27,624 nt of DNA, taken from contig JAUYLU010000013.1 in the NCBI GenBank assembly GCA_030699625.1, positions 1 through 27,624 on the forward strand, read 5' to 3'. Positions 3,222 to 27,601 of this stretch are shown here, piece by piece. Position numbers and translations under genes: made by a program. The notes under the pieces were generated by a model. The model searched no databases, was not told where the DNA came from, and saw nothing but the letters and a program-made list of their open reading frames with translations. Origin of the DNA: a bacterium (GTDB lineage Bacteria > Patescibacteriota > Minisyncoccia > Phycocordibacterales > VMEP01). Each line of letters starts with the position of its first letter. Positions within the stretch are counted from its first letter, which is position 1.

Positions 3222-5939
3222 TTATGGGTTAACCTTGTATTTTTGCCGGATGGCCTCTTCGATTTCCTCGCGCGGCCTGCCGTACCGCTCCTCGGAGGCG
3301 CGTTTGACGGTCTCCGCCCGGCCGGTAGATTTTTCCCGCGGCGGCAAAAGTTCGAGACTGAACGGCTGGGTGGGCTCGCCGTTCACGAGAAGCTTCGCGT
3401 AGGCGCTCCTGTTCTCGAGCGCGGTAAGATCGACGGCAGTGAAAACGGGCGCGAACTGCTTTTCGAGATATGCTGCATCGTCCTGCCCGACACGGAACGA
3501 CACGAGGGAGCCGACGTTCCCGAAGACCGCGTCCTTGATGCGCTGGTCAAGCTGGGCGATGTACTGGTGCGCCACGGTGAGCGAGAGGCGGTACTTCCGC
3601 GCCTCGGAGAGAATGGTGGCGATGGAATCGGTGGTGACGTTCTGGAATTCGTCGATGTAGAGGAAGAAATCGGAGAGCGCGGAGCCTCGGGCGATGGCGT
3701 CCGCTCGCGAGAGGGCCGCCATGAGGAGCTTCCCCACCACGATGAGACCGATGAGCGCCGAGTTGATCTCGCCGAGGCGCCCCTTGGAAAGGTTCACCAA
3801 AAGTATTTTTTTATGGTCGATGACGTCCCTGAAATTGAAGGCCGAGCGTTCCTGGGCGACGATGGGACGCATGATGTCGTTCGAGAGGAAGACGTCGAAC
3901 TTGTTGGTGATGTAGGGAACGAAGTTTTGGAGCCCCTGCTCGCCCGTAGTGCGCTCGGCGTTCTGCCAAAACTGGAGAAGAAGAGGATTCGTCGCTTTGG
4001 AGAGCTTCATATGGCGGTATTCCTTGTCCGACATCACCCGGGCGATGTCGAGCAGCGTGCTCCCCGACTCCGGATGCTCCATGACGAGGAAGGCGGCGTT
4101 TCGGAAATACTGTTCGAAGGCGGGGCCGCCCGCCACTTTCATGTCGAAAAGCTTGTTGAAGATGGCGAGGAGCTCGTTCACCACGAAGGTTTTCTGCTCG
4201 GGGAAGCGCGGATCGTACTCGAGCATGTTGAGCCCGAGCGGCCGCGCGGTGGCCGACGGATCGAAATAGATGACGTCTCCCTCGCGGTCGGGCGGAATAT
4301 GCGAGAGCACCTCGTCGAGGTCTTGCCCGTGCGGGTCGATCATACAGACGCCCGCACCCTTCTCGATGTCCTGGATGGCCATCTGTTTCAAGAGGGTGCT
4401 TTTGCCGGTGCCGGTGCTCCCGATGACATAGAGGTGGCGCATGCGGTCTTCGGCGGCGATGCGGACTTCGGTCTCGCGCCCCTGGTAGCGGTTCATGCCG
4501 AGGAGCGTGCCGCCGCCTGGAAGCGACAAGGGGGCGGGCGCGGTCTTCGACTTCGCGCTCACGGTCGGCACGGCAGCGATCGCTTTCGGCACGTGGAACA
4601 TGGTGGTGATTTCCTTCAGATTGAGCGGCACGGCCGACGGTTCGGAGAAGAGACGGTAGGAAAATTCATGGAAAAACGTCCGGGCCGCGCGTCCCTCCTT
4701 TATCTCGAAAGAAATGCCGTTTCCCTCGGGCTCCCGAAGCTGGTTCCAGGCGGCGGTGACATCGCCCATGAGCTCCTTGGCTCGCAGGAGCGTCGTCGCC
4801 GATACCGCCACCCGGATGTTCGCCGAGAGGATGGTGCTCCCGATCTTTTCCTTGATGAGGGCTTTGCCGCGCTCGCTCTTCGCCGAGGGCGCCTCCGCCT
4901 TCTTCGCTTTCACGAAAAGCTCGTTTCCCGCCCGGGCGAAGGACTCCATGAGCCCGCGGGCCGGGAGCGCCCGCGAAAGCGGCACGCCCCGGTCCACCTG
5001 CTCGATGACCTCGCCGAAGCGCTTCATGAAATAATCCCCCGCCGGCGAGAGGAGCACCTGCACCGCCACGCCTTCCCCTTCCTTCCTGATCTTCCCGAAG
5101 GCGCCGAGGAGCGCTTCGAGCGGGTCGTGCTCGAACTTCTCGTAGGTCTTTATGGAAAATGCCTCGTGCACCGAAGAGACGCCGACGGCGCCGAGCGATG
5201 CCCCGCCCTCGACGAAAACGTTGTAATCGTCGGGAGTCTCGATGAGCGAGGCGCCGGGATAGAACGAGAGGAACTGCTTCTCGAAGAGCGCCGTTTTGTC
5301 CCTTGGCACCGCCGCGTAAAGCGAGAGCGCTTCCTCCCCCTCGGGAAGCGCCCATTCAAGGGCGAAATAGTTCTTGCCGGGCTCGGTCTTTTTCCCGTCG
5401 GAAAGAGAAAGCATGCCGGCGTAAAACTGCTCCATGCGGGCGATGAACTCTTTCGTTCCTGCCTTGTCGTCGGTTGTCCGCGGGAGGGCGACGCGGTAGA
5501 GCTTCATGTTGACGCCCTTGAAAAGCTTATCGCGCGCCGACATGCCCTCGATCTTCCCCGCCGCGACGAGGTATTGGACGAGGAAGCGATGGAAGTCGTC
5601 GTCGACGTGCGGGTCCTTGAGCTCCCCGACCACGCCCATGGCGTTCTTCACCCCGCGTTCGAGGAGGATGCCGAGGAGCTCCTCCATTTTCGCGTCGTGC
5701 GCCTCTTTTTTCAGGTTGAGCGCGATGCCCTCGCGTTCTTCCTGCTTCATCTCATAGGAAGGATGGAGCGCGGCGGGCTCGCCCTTGTATTCCTCGACGG
5801 CCTCTGCGGCGCGCGCTTCGCGCGAAAGCGAGCGCTCCGCCTGTTCGAGACGCGCCGACGCCGTCATCTTTTCGCGCAAATACCCCATCTCCGCTTCGGG
5901 AGAGGCGAGTTTTTTCTCAAATGAAGACCGCGGCTCCAT
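3222..5939 (-). CDS. VirB4/TraG-like P-loop ATPase (DUF87/TraM-recognition type)
   Basis: 905 aa from the ATG at 5939. A charged N-terminal region of about 110 residues (probable coiled coil) is followed by a long middle domain. The motor domain comes last: Walker A GSTGTGKST with its lysine near residue 513, IDPHGQD shortly after, and Walker B LYIDEFQN with acidic pair near D763/E764, then a C-terminal SLTVAHQYIAQLD segment typical of TraD/TraG coupling proteins. Proteins of this type pump DNA or protein in type IV secretion, conjugation or competence-like systems. No transmembrane anchor is obvious, and no other type IV secretion gene lies in the window, so its partner machinery is unknown. 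The upstream in-frame start at 5984 would overlap the transposase stop. TATAGT lies 6 bp before the chosen ATG. Confidence 0.85.
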   Translation of the reverse strand: MEPRSSFEKKLASPEAEMGYLREKMTASARLEQAERSLSREARAAEAVEEYKGEPAALHPSYEMKQEEREGIALNLKKEAHDAKMEELLGILLERGVKNAMGVVGELKDPHVDDDFHRFLVQYLVAAGKIEGMSARDKLFKGVNMKLYRVALPRTTDDKAGTKEFIARMEQFYAGMLSLSDGKKTEPGKNYFALEWALPEGEEALSLYAAVPRDKTALFEKQFLSFYPGASLIETPDDYNVFVEGGASLGAVGVSSVHEAFSIKTYEKFEHDPLEALLGAFGKIRKEGEGVAVQVLLSPAGDYFMKRFGEVIEQVDRGVPLSRALPARGLMESFARAGNELFVKAKKAEAPSAKSERGKALIKEKIGSTILSANIRVAVSATTLLRAKELMGDVTAAWNQLREPEGNGISFEIKEGRAARTFFHEFSYRLFSEPSAVPLNLKEITTMFHVPKAIAAVPTVSAKSKTAPAPLSLPGGGTLLGMNRYQGRETEVRIAAEDRMRHLYVIGSTGTGKSTLLKQMAIQDIEKGAGVCMIDPHGQDLDEVLSHIPPDREGDVIYFDPSATARPLGLNMLEYDPRFPEQKTFVVNELLAIFNKLFDMKVAGGPAFEQYFRNAAFLVMEHPESGSTLLDIARVMSDKEYRHMKLSKATNPLLLQFWQNAERTTGEQGLQNFVPYITNKFDVFLSNDIMRPIVAQERSAFNFRDVIDHKKILLVNLSKGRLGEINSALIGLIVVGKLLMAALSRADAIARGSALSDFFLYIDEFQNVTTDSIATILSEARKYRLSLTVAHQYIAQLDQRIKDAVFGNVGSLVSFRVGQDDAAYLEKQFAPVFTAVDLTALENRSAYAKLLVNGEPTQPFSLELLPPREKSTGRAETVKRASEERYGRPREEIEEAIRQKYKVNP

Positions 5940-5952: not shown

Positions 5953-5971
5953 CCTAAGGGCGGCCCTTGGG
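5953..5971. repeat. REP-like palindrome, downstream copy
   Basis: Contains AAGGGCGGCCCTTGGG, the same palindrome as at 6437-6457 and 6644-6660. It overlaps the 3' end of the transposase gene and supplies its last codons (PKGRP and the stop), which suggests that the gene end has been overwritten by, or co-evolved with, the repeat. Confidence 0.8.
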
Positions 5972-6616
5972 ATACGAGAGCCACTCGTCTATAAAATTTT
6001 TGAAATCGCCGAATGAGGAAAAATACTCCGGAAACGCCTCCGTGTCCAGAATATCTTTCTCTGGTCTTGCCTCCCCTATATAGTCTAGATAACTTGAATA
6101 TATGTACTTCTCAAGATACTGTTTCGCGTTTTCTCTATTTAAAATGGTATTTTCTTTCCACCCCGCTTCTACGTTCTTTACTGGATTTAAATGGATATAT
6201 GAAAGGAGATATTTCAAGTACGTATCATTGTTGGCGTGCGTTGCCTTGAATTTCCCCTCAAACAGAGCCCCCGTTCTCCCATTTTTCTTGTTAAAGTACA
6301 TGGAATAAGCGGTTGATAATTTGCTCATAAATTTCGTTATTCCGCCTTCTGAGATTTCTTTAACCAGCAAATGGAAATGATTGGGCATTAAACAATAGGC
6401 GCCAAGCGCGACAATGCTGTTGCCTTTATCTACGCTCCCCAAGGGCCGCCCTTGGGGAATATCTTTCAATACCACCGGTTGCGTACCATTTGCGTAGAAC
6501 AGGAGTTTGACAAATCTCTCGCGGTCTCTATTGTCAAGGAATATATCTCGCTTGTCGGTTCCTCTGTTGTAAATATGGTAAAACTCTCCCTCGGAAAAGG
6601 TCAACTTACGCTGCAT
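5954..6616 (-). CDS. REP-associated tyrosine transposase (RAYT, Y1/IS200-like)
   Basis: 220 aa. N-terminal FYHIYNRGTDKRDIF (about 12-26), the HUH metal-binding motif MPNHFHLL with H80 and H82, then LSTAYSMYFNKK (about 100-111), which holds the likely catalytic tyrosine (Y104 or Y107), GALFEGKFKA, and YLLSYIHLNPVKN (about 137-148). These are standard for single-domain HUH transposases of the RAYT branch, which nick and join single-stranded DNA at palindromic REP sequences. The gene is bracketed by AAGGGCGGCCCTTGG palindromes on both sides and holds a third copy in frame (residues about 52-61, DIPQGRPLGS). It appears intact. Start is ATG 6616 with TATGAT 6 bp upstream and no Shine-Dalgarno. AT-richer than the neighbouring genes, consistent with mobility. 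Confidence 0.92.
   Translation of the reverse strand: MQRKLTFSEGEFYHIYNRGTDKRDIFLDNRDRERFVKLLFYANGTQPVVLKDIPQGRPLGSVDKGNSIVALGAYCLMPNHFHLLVKEISEGGITKFMSKLSTAYSMYFNKKNGRTGALFEGKFKATHANNDTYLKYLLSYIHLNPVKNVEAGWKENTILNRENAKQYLEKYIYSSYLDYIGEARPEKDILDTEAFPEYFSSFGDFKNFIDEWLSYPKGRP
6437..6457. repeat. REP-like palindrome inside the transposase gene
   Basis: A perfect 10-bp inverted repeat (CCCCAAGGGC and its complement) around a central C. It is in frame within the transposase coding sequence between its N-terminal motif and the HUH motif, so the gene tolerates it as a short insertion. Confidence 0.8.
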
Positions 6617-7780: not shown

Positions 7781-8593
7781 TCATTTATAGCAAATATGAA
7801 TGAATGGACCTCCACTATTAATAGTGAGGTTCGCATCGGCAAAACCGGCCGGGCAATTGCACCACCCCGTAAATGGGTTGACAACCCGGCCATTTAGACC
7901 AGTGCAGTAACCATCCACGTCTGCATACATCCCCCCGAACCCGTAAGAACCGCCACGGATGGTGCCGTACACGTGCACATCGTCCGCCACCACATAGTTC
8001 AGCCGGTTGGTGCCGCGCGGCTGCAGGTAGTAGCCGTTATTGTAGCGGTCGTAGAAGACATCGGCCTGGGTCCAGCCGTAATTGTAGGAATTGTCGTTCA
8101 CCGTGTAGTTGAGGCGGCTCGTGCCGTTCGGGTCGAGGTAGTAGCCGGTGTTCTGGGCGTCGTACTGCAGGCCGTACTGGTAGGAGTTGCCGCTGTCGTC
8201 GACGTACCAGCGCCAGTTGTTGTCGGCGGCGTTGAAGAAGCCGGAGTAGAAGGGGTGCATCATAAGCGTGCCTTCGTTGGTGCCCGCCGCGTCCTTGAAG
8301 TTGAGGCCCGACCAGCCGTTCTTGCTCCCGCGGATTGTCGCCGCGCCGTAGGTGGATTCCGCGCCGCCGGAGAGGGCGGCGGTGGTACCGGTCATGCCGA
8401 GGGAGCCGACGGTGAGGCCGCCCGACTTGGTCTGGGCGGTGGCGCCGACGTTCACGGGCGCCGAGGCGTTCCCGCCCGGGGCCGTCGCCGTCGGCCCCGT
8501 CCAGGCGAAGACTTGCGAGACGCCGATGGAGAGGATGAGGGCGATGACGAGGGTTTTCAGGGACTGGAGGAGCTCTTTTGAAATGAATGGCAT
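7781..8593 (-). CDS. Secreted fibre-like protein, shorter paralogue
   Basis: 270 aa. An N-terminal hydrophobic helix (about 13-30) ends in QVFA followed by WTGPTATAPGGN, a likely signal peptide and a conserved mature N-terminus. The body holds tail-fibre or pilus-tip-like repeats: NTGYYLDPNGTSR, NNGYYLQPRGTNR and GTIRGGSYGFGGMY. The C-terminus has paired cysteines in NPFTGWCNCPAGF and ends HICYK. It is a paralogue of the gene at 9177-10127, with a stretch of nearly identical DNA. Start ATG 8593 is only 4 bp after the stop of the upstream membrane protein, so it is cotranscribed. Related repeats occur in phage fibres and in PilV-type adhesins; a surface adhesive role is inferred. Confidence 0.72.
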   Translation of the reverse strand: MPFISKELLQSLKTLVIALILSIGVSQVFAWTGPTATAPGGNASAPVNVGATAQTKSGGLTVGSLGMTGTTAALSGGAESTYGAATIRGSKNGWSGLNFKDAAGTNEGTLMMHPFYSGFFNAADNNWRWYVDDSGNSYQYGLQYDAQNTGYYLDPNGTSRLNYTVNDNSYNYGWTQADVFYDRYNNGYYLQPRGTNRLNYVVADDVHVYGTIRGGSYGFGGMYADVDGYCTGLNGRVVNPFTGWCNCPAGFADANLTINSGGPFIHICYK

Positions 8594-9176: not shown

Positions 9177-10127
9177 TCACTTATAGCAAATATATAGACC
9201 CGGGTTAATGCTTACAAATTCAAAAGTAGAAAAACCACCTGGACAGCTGCACCCGCCTGTAAATGGGTTGACTCTAAAACAGCCACTATCACCAAAAGCA
9301 TACATCCCCCCGAACCCGTAAGAACCGCCGCGGACGGTGCCGTAGACATTGATGTTGTCGGCATCCACGTAACCGACGCGGCTCGTGCCGTTCGGGTCGA
9401 CATAGTAGCCGTTGTTGTTCGCATCGTAGAAAATGGGGCTTTGAAGCCAGCCATAGGAGTAGAGGTTGTCGTAGACGCCGTAGTTCATCCTGCTCGTGCC
9501 GTTCGGATCGAGGTAGTAGCCGGTGTTCTGGGCGTCGTACTGGAGGCCGTACTGGTAGGAGTTGCCGCTGTCGTCGACGTACCAGCGCCAGTTGTTGTCG
9601 GCGGCGTTGTAGAAGCCCGAGTAGGACGGGTGCATCATGAGGGTGCCGAAGTTGGTGCCCGCCGCGTCCTTGAAGTTGAGGCCCGACCAGCCGTTTTTCG
9701 AACCCTTGACAGTGGCCGCGCCGTAGGTGGATTCCGAACCGCCGGAGAGGGCAACGGTGGTGCCTAATATGCCGATAGTGCCATTGCCGTCGATTGTGAA
9801 CCGGTCGCCGACGCCGTTTTGATGAATAGCGAATTTCCCGTCATTGTTTTGCGAAAACCACCACCCGGAAATCCCTCCGGTATTATCGGTATCGTAAACA
9901 CCGATGCGCATCGCGGGGTCGCCGCCGTTTCCCGTACCCGCTACCCGCAGCCAGCCGGACTTCGTTTGATATGTCGATCCTGTATTAATCGGCGGGGCCG
10001 TGTTCCCGCCCGGGGCCGCGGCCGTCGGTCCCGTCCAAGCGTAGACGTAGGAGACGCCGATGGAGAGGATGAGGGCGATGACGAGGGTTTTCAGGGATTG
10101 GAACAGTTCCCGCTTGAATGCATCCAT
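9177..10127 (-). CDS. Secreted fibre-like protein, longer paralogue
   Basis: 316 aa from the ATG at 10127; the longer frame to 10169 has no better start. A hydrophobic helix (about 14-31) ends in YVYA before WTGPTAAAPGGN, a likely signal peptidase site. The body holds SGWLRVAGTGNGG, a central NGWSGLNFKDAAGTN segment, and the repeats NTGYYLDPNGTSR and NNGYYVDPNGTSR. The C-terminal cysteine pair is CSCPGGF and the end is YICYK. Compared with the 270-aa paralogue it has about 45 extra residues after the signal region (IGVYDTDNTGGISGWWFSQN and on). First gene of the surface operon, 19 bp after map, with an extended -10 just before the ATG. Confidence 0.75.
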   Translation of the reverse strand: MDAFKRELFQSLKTLVIALILSIGVSYVYAWTGPTAAAPGGNTAPPINTGSTYQTKSGWLRVAGTGNGGDPAMRIGVYDTDNTGGISGWWFSQNNDGKFAIHQNGVGDRFTIDGNGTIGILGTTVALSGGSESTYGAATVKGSKNGWSGLNFKDAAGTNFGTLMMHPSYSGFYNAADNNWRWYVDDSGNSYQYGLQYDAQNTGYYLDPNGTSRMNYGVYDNLYSYGWLQSPIFYDANNNGYYVDPNGTSRVGYVDADNINVYGTVRGGSYGFGGMYAFGDSGCFRVNPFTGGCSCPGGFSTFEFVSINPGLYICYK

Positions 10128-10133
10128 GCGGCA

Positions 10134-10142
10134 AGTATAGCA
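10134..10142 (-). promoter_or_regulatory. Extended -10 promoter of the surface-protein operon
   Basis: Minus strand TGCTATACT, ending 6 bp before the ATG at 10127. A start at the normal distance would give a leaderless message. It overlaps the end of map, so the operon may be driven both by read-through and by this promoter. Confidence 0.5.
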
Positions 10143-10146
10143 AGCT

Positions 10147-10908
10147 TTACGCAGTGAGTATTTCCACACCTTCCCTCGTGATGGCGATGGTATGTTCGAA
10201 ATGGGCCGCCCGCGTGCCGTCGACGGTCTTCCAGGTATAGCCGTCTTTGTCGAGGTAGACGTCCTCTTTGCCCTCGGTGAGCATCGGCTCGATGGCGAGC
10301 ACCATGCCGGGTTTGAGCTTCGGACCGTTCCCCTTCATCTTGTAGTTCGGAATGTACGGCTCCTCATGCACTTCGTAGCCGACGCCGTGGCCGCCAAGCA
10401 GGGTGACGATGCCGAAGCCGAGCGGCTTCACGTATGCCTCGATGGCCTTCCCGATATCGCCGACGAACCCGCCCGGCCATGCCGCCTTGATGCCGACGGA
10501 AAGCGCCTCCTTGGTCGTCTCCATAAGCTTTTTGCCGGGGGTGTCGGCGGCGCCCACGGAAACGGTGAGGGCCGCGTCGGTGATGAGCCCGTCATGGCGG
10601 ATGCCGAGGTCGAGCGAAACCAAGTCGCCTTCTTTCAGCTTCCGCATATCGGGAATGCCGTGCACCACTTCGTTGTTGATGGAAACGCAGAGCGACGCGG
10701 GATACGGGTACGGCGCGCCCCACGGCTGGTAGCGGAGGAATGCCGGCTCGTCGTCCATCTCGCGGATGAGCTTTTCGGCACGTTGATCGAGTTCGAGCGT
10801 GGTCACTCCCGGTTTTGCGGCCTTCCCCACTTCGGCGAGCACGCGGGCAAGCCGCTTCCCCCCCTCGCGGAGGACGGAGATTTCCTCCTTTGTCTTTATG
10901 GTGATCAT
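10147..10908 (-). CDS. map: Methionine aminopeptidase, type I
   Basis: 253 aa, normal length. Removes the initiator methionine from nascent proteins. All five metal ligands are present: D100 (SLDLG), D111 (TDAALT), H174 (GGHGVG), E207 (AIEPM) and E239 (FEHT), with H83 in VVHGIP. The start ATG overlaps the adk stop by 4 bp (ATGA), so translation is coupled. The adk-map order after secY is the usual spc-operon end; infA, rpmJ, rpsM and the rest do not follow here. Confidence 0.97.
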   Translation of the reverse strand: MITIKTKEEISVLREGGKRLARVLAEVGKAAKPGVTTLELDQRAEKLIREMDDEPAFLRYQPWGAPYPYPASLCVSINNEVVHGIPDMRKLKEGDLVSLDLGIRHDGLITDAALTVSVGAADTPGKKLMETTKEALSVGIKAAWPGGFVGDIGKAIEAYVKPLGFGIVTLLGGHGVGYEVHEEPYIPNYKMKGNGPKLKPGMVLAIEPMLTEGKEDVYLDKDGYTWKTVDGTRAAHFEHTIAITREGVEILTA

Positions 10909-15819: not shown

Positions 15820-15860
15820 GTAGGGCTATGGTCGCATGCGATGGGGAAAAAGTCAATCAA

Positions 15861-15917
15861 GTAGTAGATTTTGCCATTGCGCGGGGCGCAGGCAAAGCCC
15901 ATGGCAAAATTCACTAC
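15861..15917. repeat. Three-way-junction palindrome, copy A
   Basis: Outer stem GTAGTAGATTTTGCCAT (15861-15877) with 15901-15917, 15 of 17 complementary. Inner arm 1 TGCGC/GCGCA; inner arm 2 GGC-AAA-GCC. It starts 9 bp past the rplE stop. The variant arm with GTAGTGA lies on the right side, so it is inverted relative to copies C and D. Confidence 0.8.
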
Positions 15918-15925
15918 CTGGTCAA

Positions 15926-20031: not shown

Positions 20032-20060
20032 ATACTACACGGGGCGAAAATGGTTGTCAA
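20032..20060 (-). promoter_or_regulatory. Strong sigma70-type promoter for the rpsS unit
   Basis: Consensus TTGACA (20055-20060) and TAGTAT (20032-20037) separated by exactly 17 bp on the minus strand. The -35 box begins directly at the edge of palindrome copy B. Confidence 0.75.
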
Positions 20061-20061
20061 A

Positions 20062-20130
20062 CCAGGTAGTAGAATTTGGCATTGCGCTGTAAGCGCGTTT
20101 TGAAAAACCATGCCAAATTCTACTACCTGG
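20062..20130. repeat. Three-way-junction palindrome, copy B
   Basis: A perfect 21-bp outer inverted repeat (20062-20082 with 20110-20130), core GGTAGTAGAATTTGGCAT. Inner arm 1 GCGC-TGTAA-GCGC and arm 2 GTTT-TGAA-AAAC. It lies between the terminator of the HExxH gene and the rpsS promoter. Confidence 0.85.
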
Positions 20131-20136
20131 TCAAAT

Positions 20137-20159
20137 AAAAGAGCGCTCCAAGAGCGCTC
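20137..20159 (-). terminator. Intrinsic terminator of the HExxH gene
   Basis: Perfect 8-bp stem GAGCGCTC/GAGCGCTC with a TTG loop, followed on the minus strand by TTTTATTT. The stop codon of the gene sits on the edge of the stem. Confidence 0.85.
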
Positions 20160-20577
20160 AATTACCTATTCTAGCCTCGCTTTTATATAACCAGTCAAGG
20201 AAGCCGGGATTTGCCTCAAAGAAACCTATCGCCAAGCCATCTATCCATTCTTCGGCGTCGACATGGTCTCTGTAAGAGACCCCTTGCATCTCCAGCACTA
20301 AGTGGATCAATTCGTGGGCTATCGTGATCAGGCGGTCGCAATGAGAAAGATCGTCGGCCACATATATTACCCTTTTACCCAAGGGGTTGCCGATGATGGC
20401 TCCTGCTACCGGCTTCCCGTAGAACCGATCTATCGTGGAACGGGGAACGATATAAATACCTGCCAGTCTGTCGAGTACCTTATAGAACGGGATTGTGCTT
20501 TCAAGCTGTATCGACCGGCTCTCGTCAAAGACATACGTTCCGTAAAAAGCGACCGGAGGTCTGTCCGCATGTGCCAT
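20158..20577 (-). CDS. Putative HExxH metallopeptidase, accessory gene
   Basis: 139 aa from ATG 20577. This start is chosen over the in-frame one at 20604 because AAAGGAG lies 7 bases before it. HELIH at residues 88-92 is a zinc-protease-type motif, followed by DAEEWIDGLA where E109 or E110 could be the third ligand; this layout resembles ImmA/IrrE-like (M78) peptidases but overall similarity is not established. No signal peptide. It lies with the gene at 20676-21260 between rplB and rpsS, where these are normally adjacent. It has its own terminator and a good Shine-Dalgarno, unlike the ribosomal genes, and is visibly less GC-rich, consistent with an accessory insertion. Confidence 0.7.
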   Translation of the reverse strand: MAHADRPPVAFYGTYVFDESRSIQLESTIPFYKVLDRLAGIYIVPRSTIDRFYGKPVAGAIIGNPLGKRVIYVADDLSHCDRLITIAHELIHLVLEMQGVSYRDHVDAEEWIDGLAIGFFEANPGFLDWLYKSEARIGN

Positions 20578-20618
20578 TGGATACTCCTTTCCATAGAACA
20601 CCATACTAGATTCTATCT

Positions 20619-20650
20619 AAAACAAAAGCCGCCCGGATTTCCGAAGCGGC
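20619..20650 (-). terminator. Intrinsic terminator of the unrecognised accessory gene
   Basis: Stem GCCGC..CGGA/TCCG..GCGGC (20628-20650) with a short AAA loop, followed on the minus strand by TTTTGTTTT. Confidence 0.75.
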
Positions 20651-20675
20651 CTTACTTTATCCATTGGTTCAGCGG

Positions 20676-21260
20676 TTACACCACCGCCCGTTCAATGGAC
20701 TCTCTCCAGTGAATCTGGGAAAACAATTCCCATCGGGGGTCTTTGAGACGTTTCAGCTCTTCTAACGGCGGCTCTTTGATTTCCTTCCCCAAGAGGTGCG
20801 GATGCACGTAGGTCTTCGGCCGGTGAAGCCGACCCCCTTCCGCCGGAATGACGAGGAGAGGAATGGCAAGGACTGGATCATCCTCATTTCTGAAGGACAT
20901 TCCCTGAAGCTGAAAGATGAGACATTCCCCCGCCCAGTGCAATTGACCTTTCGCTGATGGAAACCACTGCATTGCCTCTTTAGTCCTGCCGACGAAGAGA
21001 ATCGACGCTTCGTCCGGCCAGATGGCCTCGAGGTCTTCTTCCGGCTCGAGCAGGTACCACTGGGGCGCTTCATGCTCGCTCCGCCAGCGAAGGGCCACTT
21101 TCTTGCCGCCTGGGAAAACCGCTCGCCCGAGAAGCGGGACGTTCGCCCGTTCGAGAAGTCCCCGCCATCTGCAAAGATAGCTCCACGGCAACCGCTTATC
21201 GTACAGCTCTACGGAAAGACGAAGTGAAGCATCGTCGAAACACTCGAAATCTGCATCCAT
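20676..21260 (-). CDS. Hypothetical accessory protein between rplB and rpsS
   Basis: 194 aa from ATG 21260, which has AAAGG six bases upstream; the in-frame ATG at 21266 overlaps that site. Not recognised. It is Trp/Arg/Glu-rich (RWRGLLERANVPLLGRAVF, GKKVALRWRSEHEAPQWYLL), with no membrane segment, signal or cysteine motif; likely cytoplasmic and globular. It has its own TTGACT promoter upstream and an intrinsic terminator downstream, so it is an independent unit inserted in the S10 operon. It shares Shine-Dalgarno and promoter style with the zinc-ribbon gene at 24449-25153 but no obvious protein similarity. Confidence 0.65.
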   Translation of the reverse strand: MDADFECFDDASLRLSVELYDKRLPWSYLCRWRGLLERANVPLLGRAVFPGGKKVALRWRSEHEAPQWYLLEPEEDLEAIWPDEASILFVGRTKEAMQWFPSAKGQLHWAGECLIFQLQGMSFRNEDDPVLAIPLLVIPAEGGRLHRPKTYVHPHLLGKEIKEPPLEELKRLKDPRWELFSQIHWRESIERAVV

Positions 21261-21293
21261 GGGCATCCTTTCTTTGCGTGTTCACCTGAAAAG

Positions 21294-24448: not shown

Positions 24449-25153
24449 TTACCTGAACTCGACGTAGACCGTTATCTCAATCCCGAGAGAACGACAGCGC
24501 CGGCCGAATTCAGCGAGAAGCGATGCGTTGGTGAACGTACCGCCTCGGACGAAGAGCTTGTAGGGGCGATCAAACCGAAACCACTTGCCATTGGGCGGAT
24601 ACCCCTCGACCCGGAAGAGTTGGAAGAAATCCTTCCGAAATTGCTCGGTTTCTTCTGGCTTCTTTCCTTGCTGCGGCCCCCGCCGATCCAAGTCGCCATT
24701 TGTCTCTTCCGGGAAATACGGGTGAAGCGCTTCCAGCCTGCGTGCCATGTCGAGCACCTGTTCCGCCTTGTTCCACTCTTCATCGCTGAGTCCAGTTTCT
24801 TTTACTGTTGTCTTGAGGCCCGGCCCAGGAAGAATCTGGTCGAAGGCATATGGCTGGAGCACTCCGTCTTCGAGGCGAAAGTGCCCGACCCTCGACCAAT
24901 CGAAGCCGTTCGTTTCGGGAAACCTTCCCCCGCAAAGTGCGGCAACCTGCTCGCGCGTGAATTCCATATCCTGACGGTAGATACGGTGGCCATGGTGACT
25001 GTCGGGAGAGCCGATTCCCACGGGACAGTCGCAGACGTAGAAGAGCTCGTCGCAGCTTCCGCAGTAATTCTTATAGAGCACCTTCCCGCATTTACCGCAC
25101 TGACCGGCCGGACCAAGCAGCTTTTTACATTCTTCCCGAGTGAGTGATGGCAT
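24449..25153 (-). CDS. Hypothetical accessory protein with N-terminal zinc ribbon
   Basis: 234 aa. Not recognised. The N-terminus has C9, then C19-x2-C22 (QCGKCGK) and C31-x2-C34 (YCGSC), then C41 and C43 (VCDC): two CxxC knuckles of a zinc-ribbon type. The middle is helical (DEEWNKAEQVLDMARRLEAL) and the C-terminus (YKLFVRGGTFTNASLLAEF..GIEITVYVEFR) looks alpha/beta. No signal peptide or membrane segment. The ATG at 25153 has AGGAGG four bases upstream, and it has a good promoter and its own terminator. It separates rpsJ from rplC, which are normally adjacent, so it is an independent inserted unit. Confidence 0.68.
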   Translation of the reverse strand: MPSLTREECKKLLGPAGQCGKCGKVLYKNYCGSCDELFYVCDCPVGIGSPDSHHGHRIYRQDMEFTREQVAALCGGRFPETNGFDWSRVGHFRLEDGVLQPYAFDQILPGPGLKTTVKETGLSDEEWNKAEQVLDMARRLEALHPYFPEETNGDLDRRGPQQGKKPEETEQFRKDFFQLFRVEGYPPNGKWFRFDRPYKLFVRGGTFTNASLLAEFGRRCRSLGIEITVYVEFR

Positions 25154-25278: not shown

Positions 25279-25321
25279 TCGGCACACAGTACGGGGTACA
25301 CGGGGCATAAAAATTTGCAAA

Positions 25322-25391
25322 CCCGGTAGTGAAATTTCGCGATGCGCCGTGGCGCGGCAATAAAATTGCTTCGCAAAATTCTACTACCGGG
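25322..25391. repeat. Three-way-junction palindrome, copy C
   Basis: Outer stem 25322-25342 with 25371-25391 (18 of 21 complementary), core GGTAGTGAAATTTCGC. Inner arm 1 GCGCC/GGCGC, inner arm 2 GCAAT-AAA-ATTGC. Same orientation as copy D. Confidence 0.8.
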
Positions 25392-25396
25392 CAAAC

Positions 25397-25504: not shown

Positions 25505-25550
25505 GAATTCCTTATTCTAATGTTCTCAAGAACATTAGAATAAGGAATTC
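25505..25550. repeat. Perfect 46-bp palindrome (22-bp arms)
   Basis: Arms begin GAATTCCTTATTCTAATG and are perfectly complementary around a two-base centre CA. No T-tract follows on either side, so it is not a simple terminator. It could be a hairpin in a small RNA or a recombination remnant. Confidence 0.8.
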
Positions 25551-27448: not shown

Positions 27449-27494
27449 AGGGGTGCTTAGGTGCTAAAAAATAATAGTGCAAGAGCGCGCCAAC

Positions 27495-27559
27495 CCCGTA
27501 GTGAATTTTGCCGTTGCGCTTGGGCGCAAGGCGTAGCTCACGGCAAAATCTACTACAGG
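27495..27559. repeat. Three-way-junction palindrome, copy D
   Basis: Outer stem CCCGTAGTGAATTTTGCCG (27495-27513) with 27541-27559, three mismatches in 19. Inner arm 1 is a perfect TTGCGC/GCGCAA hairpin, arm 2 GGC-GTA-GCT with one wobble pair. It lies 47 bp before tuf. Confidence 0.78.
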
Positions 27560-27601
27560 ACCAAAATATAACGAGTACAATGGTTTGCCATCGTTCGGGA
27601 G

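Follow-up and report, generated by a model that had tools for sequence, protein, structure and literature searches.

Four copies of a short foldback element lie between the ORFs of the ribosomal block in the window, the 27,624-nucleotide stretch of patescibacterial DNA analyzed here as a whole, and all four sit in the gaps where a sequence-only reading had located them. Copy A occupies 15857..15921 on the minus strand, on which its GTAGTGA end comes first (covariance model E 1e-16), and the direct repeat TCAA stands on both sides of it, at 15853..15856 and 15922..15925, as indicated by sequence reading and family statistics. Copy B (20062..20130, minus strand; E 8e-20) has a perfect 22-bp stem and lies between two copies of GTCAAA, at 20056..20061 and 20130..20135, with a shift of one base. 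Copy C (25322..25391, plus strand), recognized by its fold and by the covariance model (E 1e-18), is flanked by CAAA at 25318..25321 and 25392..25395, and copy D (27494..27560, plus strand; E 6.5e-15) by CCAA at 27490..27493 and 27561..27564, the latter pair by sequence reading.

The surroundings hold several other features. Two ORFs at 20158-21266 adjoin copy B between apparent rplB and rpsS in the ribosomal operon, and one of them weakly resembles an IrrE/M78 peptidase, under the Pfam cut-off. Copy C adjoins an ORF at 24449-25153, between apparent rpsJ and rplC, that has no Pfam match at E 0.001. A perfect 22-bp hairpin with a 2-nt loop at 25505-25550 is unrelated to the foldback element, and the ORFs at 7781-8593 and 9177-10169 are neighboring paralogs with 87% identity across a 300-nt stretch. 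The minus strand also carries a RAYT gene (Pfam Y1_Tnp) at 5954-6616, which is flanked by, and contains within its ORF, a palindrome of its own around CCAAGGGC.GCCCTTGG.

Each of copies A-D folds better than 200/200 of its own dinucleotide shuffles on both strands (z -4.0 to -10.7). The outer stem claimed to be common to them was confirmed; GTAGTGA.. pairs with ..TCTACTAC in the window copies, and the stem covaries in 10 copies of the genome. The interior agrees less well with the description of a conserved three-way junction with two inner hairpins. In the predicted DNA fold, two inner hairpins stand at the end of the stem in copies A, B, and C, but copy D has one only, as its arm 2, said always to pair, is open on both strands in the best fold, and some other copies lack inner arms altogether. 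Arm 1 has the proposed TGCGC/GCGCA form in the window copies and a GCGC-type arm recurs in the copies on contigs C5 and C6, but this is not a general rule; neither arm is of this type in C70, and those of C59 and C71 are so only loosely. The use of GTAGTGA versus GTAGTAG as an orientation mark holds for copy A against C and D. Copy B has GTAGTAG on both arms and is the sole one without the GA/CT mismatch among 10 aligned copies. The junction is one interior among several, and conservation lies in the covarying foldback stem, which a mismatch or bulge interrupts at a set position.

The genome to which the window belongs (571 kb in 73 contigs, 87.8% complete) contains further copies. A covariance model built from 10 of its copies matched 11 places at E < 1e-9, and a pattern search likewise gave further copies; there is also a longer copy on contig C28 (E 5e-9 when searched as a short locus), a weak copy on C1 (E 0.02), and half a copy on C51. 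The sequence-only reading had named two findings that would speak against it, a genome without further copies and copies with unpaired inner arms; copies abound, although inner arms are sometimes unpaired or absent, and as a whole the reading was not refuted. Among 60 genomes treated as relatives (the window's own is one of the 60), the model matched 10 at E <= 0.01, most of them with several copies each, while the single other genome of the same family gave no match at that threshold. A strict pattern matched 9/286 genomes drawn from the phylum and its reversed control matched 0. A scan of one genome per species gave at least 116 matching stretches; among the matches listed, 104/116 loci had a copy with a paired inner stem, and of these 88 were named as Patescibacteria-type and 16 just as 'bacterium'. 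Matches named Methylomirabilis, Rufibacter, a Flavobacteriaceae, and a Thermoproteota all belong to the 12 loci that lack a paired interior; they were taken as chance. Viral contigs, searched for a possible phage origin, gave 0 with the joint pattern and 16 stretches with the element pattern; none of the latter folds as the foldback element, so they were taken as chance and a phage origin was rejected. Within one genome, copies that are 94-98% identical occur at different loci, mostly as halves of doublets. Two congeners share orthologous copies (L255/L256), and this pair therefore offers no empty site.

The family consensus reads C-CCN-GTAGTGAA, an inner stem of ~8 bp that is variable but paired, an interior, the other side of the inner stem, and TTCTACTAC-NGG-G. 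In the 10 genome copies, 7/22 stem pairs have changed on both sides, and the stem covariation of 0.296 was reached by 0/500 shuffles (0.104 +/- 0.020), with slid controls at or below 0.073. We also assembled 124 copies selected by their ends, GTAGTGAA...TTCTACTACNGGG, alone. The inner stem is paired at seven or more positions in 111 of them, compared with a shuffled mean of 23.1 and a maximum of 35 in 1000 shuffles, and a single inner-stem position is CG in 32, TA in 26, and GC in 19 of the 84 copies in this set that belong to the mismatch class. A larger set of 175 copies was chosen partly by pairing, and its pairing was for this reason left out of the evidence. The two arms differ at a fixed place, either by GA versus CT (mismatch class, 131/175) or by one extra A (bulge class, 44/175). 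The interior consists of two hairpins, as in the window, of a single hairpin, of ~60 nt of AT-rich sequence, or of nearly nothing, which leaves 30-nt hairpins; one such mini-hairpin lies in frame inside an apparent argS ORF, judged by eye (L384, ~1993-2020). Inverted doublets with 5-6 bp between GTAGTGA ends are common in three genomes that were chosen for them (28 loci read).

In the 131 mismatch-class copies, positions -5..-2 equal +2..+5 at frequencies of 0.75, 0.83, 0.78, and 0.76 (expected 0.47, 0.33, 0.28, and 0.49), and the outer neighbors of these four central positions show a slight excess (0.45 and 0.47, expected 0.39 and 0.37); positions -1/+1 are mostly occupied by the stem-closing C and G. 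The repeats are direct and hence not part of the foldback. An exact 4-bp direct repeat flanks 54/124 end-selected copies (shuffled mean 4.9, maximum 14 in 2000 shuffles), and all 54 fall among the 84 of the mismatch class. TCAA, TTGA, and TATG are the commonest, and the target looks like G-TNNA-C, to judge from these flanks. In the bulge class, which has many members in inverted doublets, direct repeats around single units are hardly apparent; direct repeats are visible at the outer ends of some doublets (e.g. L272, L273), and the 30-nt mini-hairpins had no clear one by eye.

A gene appears to accompany the ends in longer versions of the element. GIY-YIG ORFs between or beside element ends at L109 and L081 were the first pointer to a parent, and a scan of the fetched loci yielded 11 GIY-YIG ORFs, L290 among them with ends on both sides. 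GIY-YIG genes were present in 21/22 end-rich or carrier genomes searched. We examined 51 distinct GIY-YIG ORFs from loci fetched for part of the matches in the searches of 22 genomes and 60 relatives, and GTAG-type ends enclose each of the 13 closest to the query (the query being one of them; E <= 1.8e-26; 11 genomes). These ends were found by an automatic inverted-repeat scan in 11 cases and by eye in L434 and L420, where the scan chose a neighboring unit; those of L414 and L420 have variant letters. L290, L434 (the same as L081), and L421 (the same as L109) had suggested the idea, and the other ten of the 13 are independent of it. None of the remaining 38/51 ORFs had such a GTAG-type pair as best inverted repeat in the scan; directly upstream of L436, which is among the 38, stand tandem minis of the foldback family. 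Control ORFs of similar size from the same loci reached an inverted-repeat score of at least 12 in 4/106 cases and of at least 10 in 8/106.

The units measure 309-351 bp where their own ends were picked, and their sole gene encodes a GIY-YIG nuclease of ~85-95 aa between CCNGTAGTGAA... and ...TTCTACTACNGG, each followed inward by ~8 bp that vary in sequence yet pair. The 4-bp direct repeat, read by hand, is exact in 9/13 units (TATG, AATG, TGAG, TGGA, TCAA), agrees at 3 of 4 positions in L417 and L434, and is absent in L419 and L420. In 8/13 units the right-hand repeat overlaps the ATG at which a downstream ORF starts. These ORFs measure 63 to 487 aa, although some run off the locus, and by eye some of them look like SecE, TypA, and EngB. 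The overlap is rarer in the miniatures (20/350 flanks, compared with 40/1750 shifted control windows). The gene lies behind the GTAGTAG end in 7 units and behind the GTAGTGA end in 4, two further units having variant ends, and its direction is thus not tied to the orientation mark. GTAG-type GIY-YIG genes were found in 5/60 relatives, namely in 4/10 carriers and 1/50 others (Fisher p 0.002), and one GTAG-ended unit (L442) resides in a genome in which the covariance model found no miniature. At the E <= 1.8e-26 threshold, 6/10 carriers, the window's genome included, had no GTAG-type gene, and their copies may therefore be relics or have moved otherwise. The window's own assembly holds three GIY-YIG genes of other types and no GTAG-type one, so that its copies may likewise be relics.

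The encoded protein is a bare GIY-YIG domain (Pfam PF01541, E 2.8e-18), which places it in the GIY-YIG family, and no NCBIfam model scored above its cut-off. The columns that are invariant in 12 aligned proteins (10 of GTAG-type units and 2 more distant) include the domain's tyrosines, one arginine, and one glutamate, residues with a catalytic role. Among solved chains, SLX1 structure-specific endonucleases come closest (best E 5e-4), followed by a UPF0213 protein (E 0.01). SLX1 cuts branched DNA, and an SLX1-like nuclease would for that reason suit foldback ends. More distant GIY-YIG genes, L423, L440, and L428 of the window's own genome (G000:C59:7141-7392), have an end that is related to the present one yet distinct from it (CCCGTTAGAGA or a similar sequence), and perhaps represent a sister family, as far as the ends tell; the ends of L423 are TGCATCCCGTTAGAGA...TCTCTAACGGGATGCA.

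The foldback repeat behaves as mobile DNA, judging by its direct repeats, its lack of strand preference, and its near-identical copies at different loci. The mobile structured element proposed beforehand is supported by these observations, by the additional copies that the genome and many other Patescibacteria contain, and by the longer version that carries an ORF. The search for a matching transposase, which the sequence-only reading had recommended, turned up a GIY-YIG nuclease gene in its place. As for the marks of a MITE, the element has terminal inverted repeats, the 4-bp direct repeat, which A, C, and D have in exact form and B with a one-base shift, would be its target-site duplication, and the putatively autonomous relatives with the same ends would be the GIY-YIG units of 11 genomes. 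The window copies are therefore probably non-autonomous, MITE-like miniatures of a ~309-351-bp GIY-YIG mobile element of Patescibacteria, moved by its nuclease. Within this reading, it is well supported by sequence that the GIY-YIG unit is mobile and carries its gene between its ends, and the role of the nuclease as mover is inferred from association. GIY-YIG enzymes are known as nucleases and not as strand-transfer enzymes, and the nuclease may therefore be only one part of the machinery, or a passenger.

Other movers and readings were weighed against this one. A structured RNA with a regulatory, insulating, or processing function, spread by copying, would account for the strong covariation; yet the window had no Rfam match at gathering score (0 matches), and the flanking direct repeats and the ORF-bearing version speak against it. 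Neither does placement support the regulatory or insulating module that the sequence-only reading had offered as an alternative. Copies between co-directional ORFs run with transcription in 43 cases and against it in 43 (86 in total), and among 172 placed copies of the 175, 27 lie between divergent ORFs, 19 between convergent ORFs, 23 inside mechanical ORFs >100 aa, and 17 at a locus edge. We thus consider an RNA function very improbable. Recombination by Xer or another tyrosine recombinase at inverted arms around a 6-bp core, as in dif modules, is scarcely credible. Tandem copies do give CTACTACGGG-6 bp-CCCGTAGTGAA joints (L110), but only the central 4 bp are strongly alike on the two sides, and positions -1/+1 belong to the stem, so that the 6-8 bp core of such sites is not found. 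Phage_integrase-type genes occur in 57/60 genomes, carriers or not, with none found in the window's own assembly; they fail to separate carriers from others, and tyrosine recombinases were rejected as movers.

That the copies are REP/BIME-like palindromes mobilized in trans by a RAYT (Y1 transposase), for instance the product of the gene at 5954-6616, appears highly unlikely despite several resemblances. Y1_Tnp genes are present in 10/10 carriers and 30/50 others (p 0.023), the GTAG at the stem foot is reminiscent of REPs, and the inverted doublets of three genomes are reminiscent of BIMEs. However, 15 RAYT loci inspected with their flanks by eye (14 from carriers) have short palindromes of their own that differ per gene and are unlike the foldback element; a solitary end match occurred in 3/70 RAYT-search loci, all in non-carrier genomes and with no partner end. 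The RAYTs of carriers are scattered on the tree with weak clustering (11 changes, shuffled mean 13.4, 26/500 as low), and 4-bp direct repeats are not expected of Y1 enzymes. Although Y1 genes are commoner in carriers, RAYTs were rejected as movers on account of these other palindromes and of a phylogeny that fails to track the element. That the copies are ordinary MITEs of a DDE transposase, and the GIY-YIG gene a cargo or hitchhiker, is unlikely but deserves more consideration, as terminal inverted repeats, a 4-bp duplication, and a palindromic G-TNNA-C target preference are a DDE-type outcome. Against this, no kilobase-scale unit with foldback ends was seen in 16 end-rich genomes, among the matches listed, or in the regions read, and no DDE transposase gene lay between the ends of the units read; GIY-YIG is the only gene seen repeatedly in that position, and compensatory change in the inner stem is unexpected for plain terminal repeats. 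Solitary ends were also followed up as possible signs of kilobase-scale autonomous elements, which were rejected; where this could be told, they proved to be degenerate partners, 30-nt minis, doublets, or chance.

The sequence itself shows the ends of the preferred GIY-YIG element and their pairing, the gene that they enclose, the direct repeats with their position at start codons, and the dispersal, and the following course of events would be consistent with these features. The full element comprises two foldback ends around one GIY-YIG gene and is flanked by what would be a 4-bp target direct repeat, often TATG or TGAG, and such a repeat overlaps the start codon of the ORF downstream. Its ends may fold back, either as a single strand or as a cruciform, and the nuclease would cut at the base of the folded structure, with the conserved mismatch or bulge possibly marking the strand to be cut. 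A staggered cut made in the target by the same enzyme, followed by gap filling, would leave the direct repeat. Expression of the nuclease may borrow the start codon or ribosome-binding site of the host, and miniatures could be moved in trans by the same nuclease. The stronger proposal, for which we see about even chances, is that these units form a class of ~310-bp elements without a known transposase, in which a ~90-residue SLX1-like GIY-YIG nuclease would cut both its own ends and a G-TNNA-C or start-codon target, leave a 4-bp duplication, borrow the host translation start, and spawn miniatures of 30-130 nt.

Prokaryotic mobile elements are sorted by few kinds of enzyme, namely DDE, HUH/Y1, tyrosine and serine recombinases, Cas1, and reverse transcriptases. 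If the present reading is true, an element that has covarying foldback ends, duplicates its target, and is run by just one small structure-specific GIY-YIG nuclease would be an added kind that could rank among the smallest autonomous elements. It would also give a reason for the several small GIY-YIG genes per genome in the genomes searched, and if the nuclease link is confirmed at the bench, the jumping gene would be one of an unusual kind. Searches of the open-access literature gave no description of a GIY-YIG transposon.

Insertions in rRNA genes may belong to the same picture. GIY-YIG frames occur inside the 23S rRNA genes of two genomes, apparently at the same site, open in G048 (L473, ~3904-4160) and broken by stops in G054 (L468, ~3391-3580); the inserts have perfect inverted repeats of 24 and 18 nt, respectively, whose sequences are not the same. 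As read from these stretches, rRNA genes thus contain the same design with other ends. The 23S stretches obtained from 14/23 genomes contained no GTAG-type element. According to a 2024 survey of rRNA insertions in CPR bacteria (PMC11270868), every GIY-YIG protein lies in an insert that resembles neither group I nor group II introns, and the other unclassified inserts mostly lack an ORF and are short; the survey suggests that some short inserts are RNase III-type intervening sequences. Other GIY-YIG genes have foldback ends of their own, as in L423 with its CCCGTTAGAGA-like end and in the two 23S inserts, and the class may therefore explain part of the non-intron rRNA insertions. If true, the reading would offer a cause for short insertions in Patescibacteria, perhaps including the non-intron rRNA ones described in PMC11270868.

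Among known systems, the rRNA inserts of PMC11270868 are alike in having a GIY-YIG gene in an insert that is neither group I nor group II and in occurring in the same hosts, but that paper treats rRNA genes and its main text does not contain the term 'inverted repeat'. Bacterial MITEs and other small mobile sequences, such as MITEAba12 and RU-1, are likewise short, dispersed, and without a gene, with inverted ends and a target direct repeat, whereas the likely parent here encodes a GIY-YIG nuclease and not a transposase, and the inner part of the ends varies yet pairs. REP/BIME sequences with their RAYT (TnpA_REP) are also short palindromes with inverted doublets and a GTAG near the stem foot; in contrast, direct repeats are present here, no Y1 gene was seen between or beside the ends, and the palindromes beside the RAYTs of these genomes are different ones. 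In integron attC sites and IS200/IS605 ends, too, a foldback stem has a fixed mismatch or bulge that possibly marks the strand, but the foldback element has no integrase or Y1 gene tied to it and is flanked by direct repeats. Finally, in free-standing and intron-borne GIY-YIG homing endonucleases, a single GIY-YIG gene is the only gene of the mobile unit, as it is here; homing, however, copies that unit into an allelic site without target duplication, whereas the foldback element occupies many sites and has terminal inverted repeats and flanking direct repeats.
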